NCBI GenBank assembly: GCA_003161615.1
Contig: PMOB01000002.1
Location: forward strand, 1 to 52,455
From: Actinomycetota bacterium
GTDB lineage: Bacteria; Actinomycetota; Thermoleophilia; Gaiellales; Gaiellaceae
Direction of reading: 5' to 3'
DNA length: 52,455 nucleotides
The translations under genes and the position numbers were made by a program. Positions 29,584-34,059 of the stretch are shown here, in pieces; position 1 is the first letter of the stretch; each line of letters opens with the position of its first letter. The notes under the pieces were generated by a model. It searched no databases, was not told the DNA's origin, and saw only the letters and a program-made list of their open reading frames with translations.

Positions 29584-29796
29584 TCACCGGTCGGCGTCTA
29601 CCGACGATTGCTCGAGCAGTTCCTCGAAGCACGGCGCTCCCTCGAAGGCGGCGAGACCCGCGGGACGGTCGAGGCGGTCTTCGCGCAGGCGCCGCAGCTT
29701 GCGCGCGCGGCGAGCGGTCGCGACCGCTGCCGAGGCGCCGACGACTCCGCCGATCAGGAAGTCCAAAGCTCTCCCGCGCTTGCCGTCTCCGTCCAT
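29584..29796 (-). CDS. Small single-helix membrane protein (70 aa)
   Basis: A short polar N-terminus precedes one hydrophobic glycine/alanine helix (FLIGGVVGASAAVATA) and a basic stretch RRARKLRRLRED. The frame is open from the ATG at 29796 and the composition is protein-like. It is 14 bases from the divergent PfkB kinase start and 21 bases before the large membrane-protein gene, which it may precede on one transcript. Confidence 0.6.
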   Translation of the reverse strand: MDGDGKRGRALDFLIGGVVGASAAVATARRARKLRRLREDRLDRPAGLAAFEGAPCFEELLEQSSVDADR

Positions 29797-29810: not shown

Positions 29811-30641
29811 TTGCGCATCGCGACCCTCGGGGACGTATTGCTCGATGTGATCGTGCGGCTCGAGGAGCCGCTCGTTCCCGGGGCGGACGTGCGCGCTCAA
29901 ACGCGGGCCGGCGCCGGCGGTCAGGCGGCGAACGTCGCGGCGTGGGCGGCGGAGCTCGGCGCGGAGGCGCGGTGCATCGCGAAACGCGGCGACGATCCCG
30001 CGGGCGAGCTCGTCGCGCGGGAGCTCGCGTCGCACGGGGTCGAGCTCGTCGGGCCGGTGGCGGCCGGGCCAACGGGCATCGTCGTCTCAACGGTGGAGAC
30101 GAGCGAGCGCGCGCTCGCGTCCGATCGCGGCGTGGCCACGACTCTCGCGCCGGAAGAGCTCGACGCGGCCTGGCTCGCCTGCGACGTCCTCCATCTCTCG
30201 GGCTACGCGTTCGTCGAGGCGCCGATCGCCAATGCAGCGCTTCTCGCGGCGCGGCTCGCGCGCGAGGCGGGCGCGCAGGTGTCGGTCGACGTCGCGGCGT
30301 GGACGGAGATCCGCCGCTTCGGACCGGTCCGCTTCCGCGAGCTCCTCGACGAGCTCGCGCCCGACGTCCTCTTCGCGACCGAGGCGGAGTGGGAACTGCT
30401 GGGCGGCGCCTATCTCTCCGCGCCGACCGGCGTCCTGAAGCGCGGCCCGCGCGGCTGCAGCGTCTTCACCGCCGAGTCGAAGCTCGACTTCGCCGCCGTC
30501 GAGACGGAGGTCGTCGACCCGACCGGCGCCGGCGACGCGCTCGCCGCGGGCTTCCTGTTGGGAGGCTCGCTGGAGGAGGCGGCGCGGCGCGGGCTCGAGG
30601 CCGCCGCCCGCTGCGTCGCCAAAGTAGGTTCGTTCCCGTGA
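29811..30641 (+). CDS. psuK: PfkB-family kinase, probable pseudouridine kinase
   Basis: The ribokinase-fold protein (276 residues) carries the N-terminal AGAGGQAANVAAWAAELG and the C-terminal DPTGAGDALAAGFLLGG with the catalytic Asp. Specificity is inferred from context: it heads a translationally coupled operon with psuG. PsuK would phosphorylate pseudouridine to its 5'-phosphate for PsuG. The start is a TTG at 29811; no ATG or GTG fits before the conserved IATLGDVLLDV strand. Confidence 0.8.
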   Translation: MRIATLGDVLLDVIVRLEEPLVPGADVRAQTRAGAGGQAANVAAWAAELGAEARCIAKRGDDPAGELVARELASHGVELVGPVAAGPTGIVVSTVETSERALASDRGVATTLAPEELDAAWLACDVLHLSGYAFVEAPIANAALLAARLAREAGAQVSVDVAAWTEIRRFGPVRFRELLDELAPDVLFATEAEWELLGGAYLSAPTGVLKRGPRGCSVFTAESKLDFAAVETEVVDPTGAGDALAAGFLLGGSLEEAARRGLEAAARCVAKVGSFP

Positions 30642-31072
30642 ACGTCGAGCCGCTGACGGACAGGCACGCCGCGGAGATCGCCGAGTGGCGGTACGAGTTC
30701 CCGTACGAGTGGTACGACACGTCGACCGACCCGCGCCGCGTCGAGCTGTTCGCGAACCCGGCGCGCCGCACGCACCTGCGCGCGGTCGTCGACGAGGCCG
30801 GCGAGCTCGTCGGCTTCTTCAACTTCGTCCCCGAGGGACACGAGGTACGGCTCGGGCTCGGGATGCGACCGGATCTGACCGGACGCGGGCTGGCGCAGCC
30901 GTTCATCGAAGCCGCCCTCGACTACGCGCGGCGCGAGTGGCGGCCGCGGCTCTTCCGGCTCTGGGTTGCGCGCTGGAACGAGCGGGCACTGCGGGCCTAC
31001 CGGCGCGCCGGCTTCCGCGAGGTCGCTCCCGCCGAGGAGAGCCGCTTCGTCGAGATGGAGCGCCCCGCATGA
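30638..31072 (+). CDS. GNAT-family N-acetyltransferase
   Basis: The 144-residue protein is a GNAT fold with the acetyl-CoA loop RPDLTGRGLAQPFIEAAL and a late NERALRAYRRAGF. The GTG start overlaps the psuK stop (GTGA) and its stop overlaps the psuG start (ATGA). It is therefore built into the pseudouridine operon, where an acetyltransferase has no standard role. Substrate unknown. Confidence 0.87.
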   Translation: MNVEPLTDRHAAEIAEWRYEFPYEWYDTSTDPRRVELFANPARRTHLRAVVDEAGELVGFFNFVPEGHEVRLGLGMRPDLTGRGLAQPFIEAALDYARREWRPRLFRLWVARWNERALRAYRRAGFREVAPAEESRFVEMERPA

Positions 31073-31950
31073 TCCGCGTCGGCGACGAGATACGCGAGAC
31101 CCTCGCGAGCGGCGGCGCCGTCGTCGCGCTGGAGACGACGCTCGTCGCGCATGGCTTCCCGCCCGGCGAGGGCGTCGCCGTGGGGCTCGCCTCAGAGCTG
31201 CAGGTGCGCGCCGCCGGAGCCGTCCCGGCGACGGTCGGCGTCCTCGACGGCGAGGTGCGTGTCGGGCTGACGGAGGCTGAGCTCGCGCGCTTCGACGTCT
31301 CCGCCCGCAAGGCCGGGCCGCGCGACCTCGCCGCAGCTGCGGTGCAGGGAGCTGTCGGCGCGACGACGGTCGGCGCCACGCTCGCGGTCGCGCGCGCGAC
31401 CGGGATCCGCTTCATGGCAACCGGCGGCAGCGGCGGCGTCCACCGCGGCTTCCCGCATCCGCCCGACGTCTCCGCCGACCTCGGCGAGCTGGCGCGGACG
31501 CCCGCGCTCGTCGTCTCGGCCGGCGTCAAGTCGCTCCTCGACGTCCCGGCCACAGCCGAGCTGCTCGAGACGCTTGGCGTGCCGGTGCTCGGCTTCCGCG
31601 TCGACACGCTGCCGCTCTTCTACGGCGCCGCGGGAGGGCCGCCGGTGTCGGCGCGCGTCGAGTCGGCGGAGGAGGCCGCGCGCGTCGCGGCGGCGCACTG
31701 GGAGCTCGGCGGCGCGGGGCTGCTCCTCGGCCGCCCGCCCGACGAGCCGCTCGAGGACGTCGAGCCGCTGATCGAGGCTGCGCTGCGCGCAGCTGAGGCC
31801 GAAGGCGTCTCCGGCCAGGCCGTGACGCCGTTCGTCCTCTCCTATCTCCATCGGGAGAGCGGCGGCCGGACGCAGGAGGCGAACCGCGCGCTCATCGCCC
31901 AGAACGCGCGTCTTGCCGGCGAGATCGCGGTCGCCAGTACCCTCCTCTGA
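31069..31950 (+). CDS. psuG: Pseudouridine-5'-phosphate glycosidase
   Basis: Cleaves pseudouridine 5'-phosphate to uracil and ribose 5-phosphate, breaking a C-C glycosidic bond. The 293-residue protein shows VVALETTLVAHGFPPGEG, ARKAGPRDLAAAA, TTVGATLAVARATGIRFMAT, GGVHRG, SAGVKSLLDVPATAELLET and GFRVDTLPLFY, as expected for the family. Coupled at both ends (ATGA before, TGATG after). Confidence 0.95.
   Translation: MIRVGDEIRETLASGGAVVALETTLVAHGFPPGEGVAVGLASELQVRAAGAVPATVGVLDGEVRVGLTEAELARFDVSARKAGPRDLAAAAVQGAVGATTVGATLAVARATGIRFMATGGSGGVHRGFPHPPDVSADLGELARTPALVVSAGVKSLLDVPATAELLETLGVPVLGFRVDTLPLFYGAAGGPPVSARVESAEEAARVAAAHWELGGAGLLLGRPPDEPLEDVEPLIEAALRAAEAEGVSGQAVTPFVLSYLHRESGGRTQEANRALIAQNARLAGEIAVASTLL
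31938..31943 (+). promoter_or_regulatory. Internal -10 element before the 81-aa gene (TACCCT)
   Basis: TACCCT lies 6 bases before the ATG at 31950, inside the psuG 3' end. Confidence 0.4.
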
Positions 31951-32195
31951 TGGCTCGCGGCTACCTCGAAGGCCCCGCCGCCGAGGAGGCGCAAAGGCGG
32001 CTGGACGAGCTTGCGCGCGGTGTCGCCGACGAGCCCGCCGCCGACCTGCAAGCCGCCGTTTACGGCTGTACGGAGGACGATCCCGAGCCGCACTTCCTCG
32101 GCTGGCTCGGCGAGGTCGACCCGGACGAGCTGTTCGCGTCGGGCGCCGCCTGGGGCGTCACCGTCCGGCGGACGGCGACCGCCGCCGCTAGCTGA
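31950..32195 (+). CDS. Small acidic protein of unknown function (81 aa)
   Basis: A soluble acidic protein with no motif I recognise, containing a single Cys and EPHFLGWLGEVDPDELFA. Its ATG shares one base with the psuG stop. A TACCCT hexamer 6 bases before it could also drive it separately. The end overlaps the convergent GYD gene by 8 bases. Confidence 0.65.
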   Translation: MARGYLEGPAAEEAQRRLDELARGVADEPAADLQAAVYGCTEDDPEPHFLGWLGEVDPDELFASGAAWGVTVRRTATAAAS

Positions 32196-33153: not shown

Positions 33154-33549
33154 GTGGGCTATCACGTCGTCCAGGCGAGCGATCTGGAGTGGGAGGAGCG
33201 GCCCGGCCACGAAGGCCAGGCGCCGCGGCACGCAGCCGACCTCACAGGCCCGGCGCAGATGACGGAGTCGCGCGCACGGATGTGGCGCTATCCCGCCCAC
33301 GTGCGCGGCCACCGCCACCTCGATCCAGATCAGGAGGAGGTCTTCGTCCCGCTCAGCGGCACGCTGACGATGCTGCTCGGCGAGCCGTGGGAGCGCGTCG
33401 ACGTCGAGCCGGGTGGAGTGGTCGTCGTCCACCAGGGAACGCCGCTCCAGCCGCGCAACGAGACCAGCGAGGAGATCCTCTTCCTCGCCTACGGCGCGCC
33501 GAGCGAGCACGGCAACGCCGAGTTCCTAGAGGACGTCGAGACGCTTTAG
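33154..33549 (+). CDS. Cupin domain protein
   Basis: The 131-residue single-cupin protein shows HVRGHRHLDPDQEEVFVPLSG (His, His, Glu metal ligands) and PLQPRNETSEE in the second motif, where the ligand His is not obvious. Function is unknown; small cupins are often sensors or isomerases. GTG start with TACAGT 6 bases upstream. The end overlaps the convergent nucleosidase gene by 24 bases. Confidence 0.83.
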   Translation: MGYHVVQASDLEWEERPGHEGQAPRHAADLTGPAQMTESRARMWRYPAHVRGHRHLDPDQEEVFVPLSGTLTMLLGEPWERVDVEPGGVVVVHQGTPLQPRNETSEEILFLAYGAPSEHGNAEFLEDVETL

Positions 33550-34059
33550 CGCGTCGGCGAGCGCCGCGAAGGCGTCGTCGAACCTCCACTTCGTGCGGTC
33601 CGGCTCGGCGGGCGAGTTCGAGATCGCGCGCAGCTCGACCGCCGGAACCCCGGCGAGCTCGCAGGCGCGAAGGACGCCGAAGCCCTCCATCGCCTCGACG
33701 TCGTAGCCACTGCCGCCGCCGACCCTGCCGCAGGTCGCGATCGGAAGGACAAGCGCCTCGGGCAGCGCGGCGCGCAGCCGCTCCAGCAATGCAGCGTCGG
33801 GATGGGCGCGCTCGACGCGCGGCAGCGTCGAGCCGGGGTCGATCACGTCGCAGTAGACCGCCTCGCTGCCGAGCACGAGCGCCGGAGGCTCGATCCCGTG
33901 CGCACCGGCGATGCCGACGTGGAGGACGGCGTCGGGCCGCCGCTCTTCGATCGCCCGCGCGGTCTGGAGCGCCGCCTCGACCGGCCCGATCCCACAACAG
34001 AAGGTGTCCGCTCCGTCGAGGAGCGCGAGTTCCCGCTGCGTTGCGGCGACGACGAGCAT
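33526..34059 (-). CDS. mqnB: Nucleosidase, probable futalosine hydrolase
   Basis: A phosphorylase-superfamily protein of 177 residues with GIGPVEAALQTARAI, HVGIAGAHG, the catalytic-type VEAMEGFGVLRACEL and ELRAISNSPAEPDRTKW. The Trp after the ISN segment favours futalosine hydrolase of the menaquinone futalosine pathway over MTA/SAH nucleosidase. It is short for the family. No other mqn genes are nearby. TAGCGT 7 bases before the ATG. Confidence 0.72.
   Translation of the reverse strand: MLVVAATQRELALLDGADTFCCGIGPVEAALQTARAIEERRPDAVLHVGIAGAHGIEPPALVLGSEAVYCDVIDPGSTLPRVERAHPDAALLERLRAALPEALVLPIATCGRVGGGSGYDVEAMEGFGVLRACELAGVPAVELRAISNSPAEPDRTKWRFDDAFAALADALKRLDVL

Follow-up and report, generated by a model that had tools for sequence, protein, structure and literature searches.

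A GNAT acetyltransferase gene coupled to a predicted pseudouridine-salvage operon in one Thermoleophilia-type lineage

The window, a stretch of 52,455 nucleotides, is part of a 2.32-Mb genome of Thermoleophilia type. Four ORFs encoding a PfkB-family kinase, a GNAT acetyltransferase, PsuG and an 81-aa protein lie there in tandem on the forward strand (Table 1). Direct reading of the sequence gave the overlaps GTGA at 30638–30641 (kinase/GNAT), ATGA at 31069–31072 (GNAT/psuG) and TGATG at 31948–31952 (psuG/81-aa ORF), in agreement with the original prediction, in which the four ORFs were joined by these overlaps. The E-values of the Pfam matches were 1.4e-32 for the kinase (PfkB), 1.5e-11 for the GNAT (Acetyltransf_1) and 1.4e-89 for PsuG (Indigoidine_A). 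The 81-aa ORF encodes 16 Asp/Glu and 6 Lys/Arg residues.

Table 1 Positions of the tandem ORFs and of the divergent upstream gene in the window.
Feature	Positions	Strand	Remarks
PfkB-family kinase, by context presumed to be psuK (pseudouridine kinase)	29811-30641	+	TTG start, 276 aa; Pfam PfkB
GNAT acetyltransferase	30638-31072	+	GTG start overlapping the kinase stop, 144 aa; Acetyltransf_1
psuG, predicted pseudouridine-5'-phosphate glycosidase	31069-31950	+	ATG start, 293 aa; Indigoidine_A
81-aa acidic protein, neighbour	31950-32195	+	ATG start; no Pfam match above cut-off
70-aa protein, divergently encoded and head to head with the kinase; a conserved neighbour	29584-29796	-	upstream in 59/66 loci

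All four ORFs behave as real genes, as judged from their conservation and dN/dS in relatives from the genus. The median values in genus relatives are 0.217 for the kinase, 0.270 for the GNAT and 0.218 for psuG (9 sequences each), and 0.230 for the 81-aa ORF (8 sequences). The GTGA overlap into the GNAT gene is present in all 9 genus loci compared; it forms the kinase/GNAT junction in 8 of them and the junction between tandem GNAT genes in L078. The overlap into psuG, either GTGA or ATGA, is present in 8 of the 9 loci and differs in L079.

The psuG product scored 300.7 bits against PF04227 (Indigoidine_A; cut-off 25.2) over residues 7–289 and shows 40% identity with E. coli PsuG along its length. 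Its E22, K81, H125, D137, K154 and N272 are aligned with the identical residues E31, K93, H137, D149, K166 and N289 of E. coli PsuG, which we take to be the active-site residues of that enzyme, K166 presumably being the Schiff-base lysine. Because the family match is accompanied by retention of these residues, the product is strongly predicted to be pseudouridine-5'-phosphate glycosidase. This identity bears out the earlier description of the locus as a pseudouridine-degradation operon.

The kinase scored 113.6 bits against Pfam PfkB and 10.8 bits, below the cut-off of 540, against the NCBIfam pseudouridine kinase model, and a BLASTP comparison with E. coli PsuK showed little in common beyond the TGAGDA block. 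The ribose-side, catalytic and base-side residues of E. coli PsuK used for comparison were taken from PMC9247573, in which S30, N143 and K170 recognise the base. D12, G37, N41 and D242 of the window kinase match ribose-side and catalytic residues, and the base-recognising S30, N143 and K170 are aligned to D26, P138 and G171, an alignment that is unsure at such low identity. Judged by its sequence, the window kinase is a PfkB protein of a different type from E. coli PsuK. Its genomic context makes pseudouridine kinase the likeliest identity, and the substrate could differ from pseudouridine because the base-side residues of E. coli PsuK seem to be absent.

For a wider view of the phylum, 296 genomes were surveyed with PF04227, which was found in 80 of them at 84 places; 60 of these places, all outside the order, were examined. 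Matches of the window kinase type (E ≤ 1e-5) were present at 41 of the 60 psuG loci and matches of the E. coli PsuK type at 13, being strong (142–231 bits) in 5. At most of the phylum loci examined, psuG is linked to a kinase of a type other than E. coli PsuK.

Among 121 genomes (the window genome and its relatives), psuG was detected in 63, from which 66 psuG loci (L035–L100) were compared. In the window's genus, psuG was detected in 11 of 16 genomes. The GNAT gene lies directly before psuG in 10 of the 11 genus loci, and in the eleventh (G003) the contig breaks off within psuG. The contig of G001 ends inside the GNAT gene, so that its kinase is out of view. Two tandem GNAT genes lie between the kinase gene and psuG in L078 (from G004), where the first copy is at most 49% identical to the window GNAT. 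Outside the genus, an intact GNAT gene occupies the same slot at 2 of the 55 order psuG loci (G024 and G065) and a damaged one at another 2 (split over two frames in G057, truncated in G062). The remaining 51 are without it; at 4 of the 55 (L057, L061, L063 and L091) the DNA starts less than 300 bases from the psuG match, too near for a GNAT gene to show. At the 60 phylum psuG loci outside the order, the GNAT subfamily was absent within about 3 kb (less where contigs end), in a search with an HMM built from the window GNAT subfamily only, by which other GNAT subfamilies near psuG could be missed.

In a tree of the kinase and PsuG proteins together, which took the 50 of 66 loci where both were long enough, the intact-GNAT label needs 3 changes, or 5 when damaged copies are counted, and the same slot is filled in five scattered lineages. 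The 15 operon copies did not form one starred clade in the GNAT tree, yet grouping them was not rejected (p-AU 0.519). The gene may have been inserted once and lost repeatedly, or inserted several times. Within the genus, the GNAT gene is a real operon member under purifying selection. The original prediction that it is coupled to psuG stood there, in the gene order, the overlaps and the dN/dS, and a survey of actinobacterial psuG neighbourhoods, which it had proposed, recovered the co-occurrence in the genus, at 4 of the 55 other order loci (2 of them with damaged copies) and at none of the 60 phylum loci outside the order. That the GNAT would be typical of actinobacterial psuG loci was not borne out by these 60, and its scarcity in the order, its absence from the 60 phylum loci and the many relatives without a flanking psuG (see below) do not support it as a regular pathway step. 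The most fitting reading of the GNAT is that of an accessory enzyme specific to this lineage rather than a general step of the pathway.

The GNAT scored 45 bits against Acetyltransf_1 (cut-off 20.7), and its predicted model (pLDDT 92.5) matches GNAT structures. The best PDB matches are SpeG chains, both by sequence (E 3e-5) and by model (E 1.2e-8). The score against the NCBIfam spermidine acetyltransferase model was 18.9 bits, below the cut-off of 218, and no NCBIfam match came close enough to its cut-off to suggest a substrate. Relatives of the GNAT turned up at 80 loci when named genomes were scanned. The flank contains psuG at 10 of them, on contigs that match the same Thermoleophilia-type genomes, and is without psuG at the other 70, a count that concerns the flank and not the rest of the genome. 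These relatives are scattered over many phyla, and outside Thermoleophilia no neighbour recurred; the widest cluster of neighbouring ORFs, the GNAT's own aside, spanned 6 locus groups. At E ≤ 1e-8, the GNAT was found in 18 of the 121 genomes, all of which have psuG, though the GNAT gene is located elsewhere in 5. W17, Y19 and Y26 are invariant over 56 aligned members, P22 and Y23 are nearly so, and the W17/Y19/Y26 motif is common to the operon GNATs and to relatives away from psuG. This motif may form part of the acceptor site, in which case operon and non-operon GNATs would have the same type of substrate.

The 81-aa protein had been described as having no known counterpart and as belonging to the operon. 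It has many counterparts, none of known function: the family occurs in 65 of the 121 genomes, some without detected psuG (e.g., G012 and G013). At the genus loci, an opposite-strand ABC-2-type transporter pair lies between psuG and the 81-aa gene, followed by a GYD-domain gene. Only two genomes, the window genome and G003, have the 81-aa gene abutting psuG, by different junctions (TGATG and TGAATG, respectively), and no close copy of the relatives' ABC ATPase is present in the window genome (best 39% identity). Its contact with psuG follows the loss of the transporter pair. Among 30 loci examined with the 81-aa family, 15 are without ABC or psuG context, and in 14 of these, from other genera (L283, L285 and L288–L299), the gene precedes korA in the same orientation. 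Since korA encodes a 2-oxoacid:ferredoxin oxidoreductase according to Pfam, this arrangement suggests a link of the family to that enzyme, and the protein is perhaps tied to KorAB by origin. Its predicted structure (pLDDT 78) had a best PDB match of E 1.3, and no fold was assigned. Because the ABC pair intervenes in the genus and korA is the neighbour elsewhere, the 81-aa protein is a bystander; together with its family members in genomes without detected psuG, this arrangement refutes its role as an operon partner.

The divergent 70-aa protein is encoded upstream of the kinase gene or psuG at 59 of the 66 order loci, and at all 7 loci without it the upstream DNA extends for no more than 618 bases. 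The protein contains an N-terminal hydrophobic stretch as well as the motif AGLxAFEGAPC, and gave no Pfam match. Members of its family occur in 60 of the 63 genomes with psuG and in 8 of the 58 genomes without detected psuG, so that it was rejected as a psuG-specific partner. Among these 8, G008 still has the kinase gene, at a contig end, and in five (G025, G031, G051, G063 and G071) the 70-aa gene lies beside an FmdB-type zinc-ribbon gene with no psuG in the stretch. Shared gene order therefore explains much of its association with psuG, and the term conserved neighbour suits the gene better than that of a pathway member. Downstream of psuG, a cupin gene (33154–33546, + strand) and a PNP_UDP_1 phosphorylase-family gene (33529–34059, − strand) recur nearby in many relatives.

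The gene order, coupling, conservation and selection observed here are probably explained by a pseudouridine-salvage operon with an accessory GNAT whose substrate would be some generic amine, the 81-aa gene being a separate neighbour. For the two enzyme steps, we infer from context that the PfkB kinase would phosphorylate pseudouridine, and from the family and the retained residues that PsuG would split pseudouridine 5'-phosphate into uracil and ribose 5-phosphate. The GNAT, of a widespread subfamily, would be translated together with both from its position between their genes in the genus (sporadically in the family). Pseudouridine is an unlikely substrate for it because this nucleoside has no primary amine, and the GNAT most likely acetylates another amine. 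Since the conserved motif is identical in relatives away from psuG, its task is most likely the generic one that these relatives perform, such as the acetylation of a small amine. It would then have been kept for its usefulness and co-expression, not for a need of the pathway, and the 81-aa gene would have come to abut psuG when the ABC-transporter pair was lost. Several observations pull against this explanation. All 18 GNAT genomes have psuG, although the GNAT gene lies elsewhere in 5 of them. The shared slot in five lineages and the single clade that was not rejected both hint at a lasting tie between the GNAT and psuG, and a kinase that seems to lack the base-side residues of E. coli PsuK could act on a substrate other than that of the salvage pathway.

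A GNAT gene that landed in the operon as a passenger, with no tie to its neighbours, would agree with its patchy presence outside the genus, its decay in G062 and G057, and the spread of its relatives, which have no neighbour in common, over many phyla. This reading is unlikely, however, as the gene is kept in all 10 assessable genus loci and is under purifying selection, and both 4-base overlaps are kept as well. We consider it still less probable that the GNAT is a partner in the pathway, acetylating an amine-bearing modified nucleoside or a C-nucleoside antibiotic for processing or detoxification. The position and coupling of the gene between the kinase gene and psuG in the genus, its purifying selection, the tandem copy in G004 and a kinase differing in type from E. 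coli PsuK are consistent with such a role, but the GNAT is absent from most psuG loci examined, its motif is common to relatives away from psuG and no NCBIfam match comes near a substrate-naming cut-off. A similarly doubtful, broader proposal is that the kinase, GNAT and PsuG constitute a C-nucleoside module, in which the GNAT would acetylate either C-nucleoside antibiotics or pseudouridine derivatives that bear an amine, or else would silence PsuG by acetylating the presumed Schiff-base lysine, and the kinase would act on a substrate other than plain pseudouridine. Regulation of the pathway by lysine acetylation, for example of K154 of PsuG (the presumed Schiff-base lysine, aligned with K166 of E. 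coli PsuG) or of the kinase, is very improbable, since the fold matches of the GNAT are led by polyamine acetyltransferases (SpeG), although it is co-translated with both possible targets.

On the preferred reading of a salvage operon with an accessory GNAT, the pathway itself is ordinary, and what one lineage has added to it is an extra, coupled gene; a misleading gene neighbour, the 81-aa protein, has been cleared away. To our knowledge, the pseudouridine pathway needs only two enzymes; a GNAT tied to C-nucleosides, if true, would add a step to it.

The closest known counterpart is the E. coli psuK-psuG-psuT operon (MG1655 b2166-b2164). As in the window, a PfkB kinase gene lies there upstream of psuG and overlaps it, and the PsuG proteins share the identity and active-site residues described above. 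In contrast, the window kinase is of another PfkB type, no psuT-like gene is found among the ORFs adjoining the window operon, and the GNAT gene is inserted between the kinase gene and psuG. No paper describing a GNAT in a psuG operon was found among the titles and opening parts of abstracts searched. The GNAT resembles SpeG-type polyamine acetyltransferases in its fold and in its best PDB matches, whereas the identity in the structure matches is about 20% and the window GNAT falls below the SpeG family cut-off. Other kinase-psuG pairs of Actinomycetota differ from the window operon in having no window-type GNAT within about 3 kb at any of the 60 loci, but resemble it in the pairing itself, with the window-type PfkB kinase at 41 of them.
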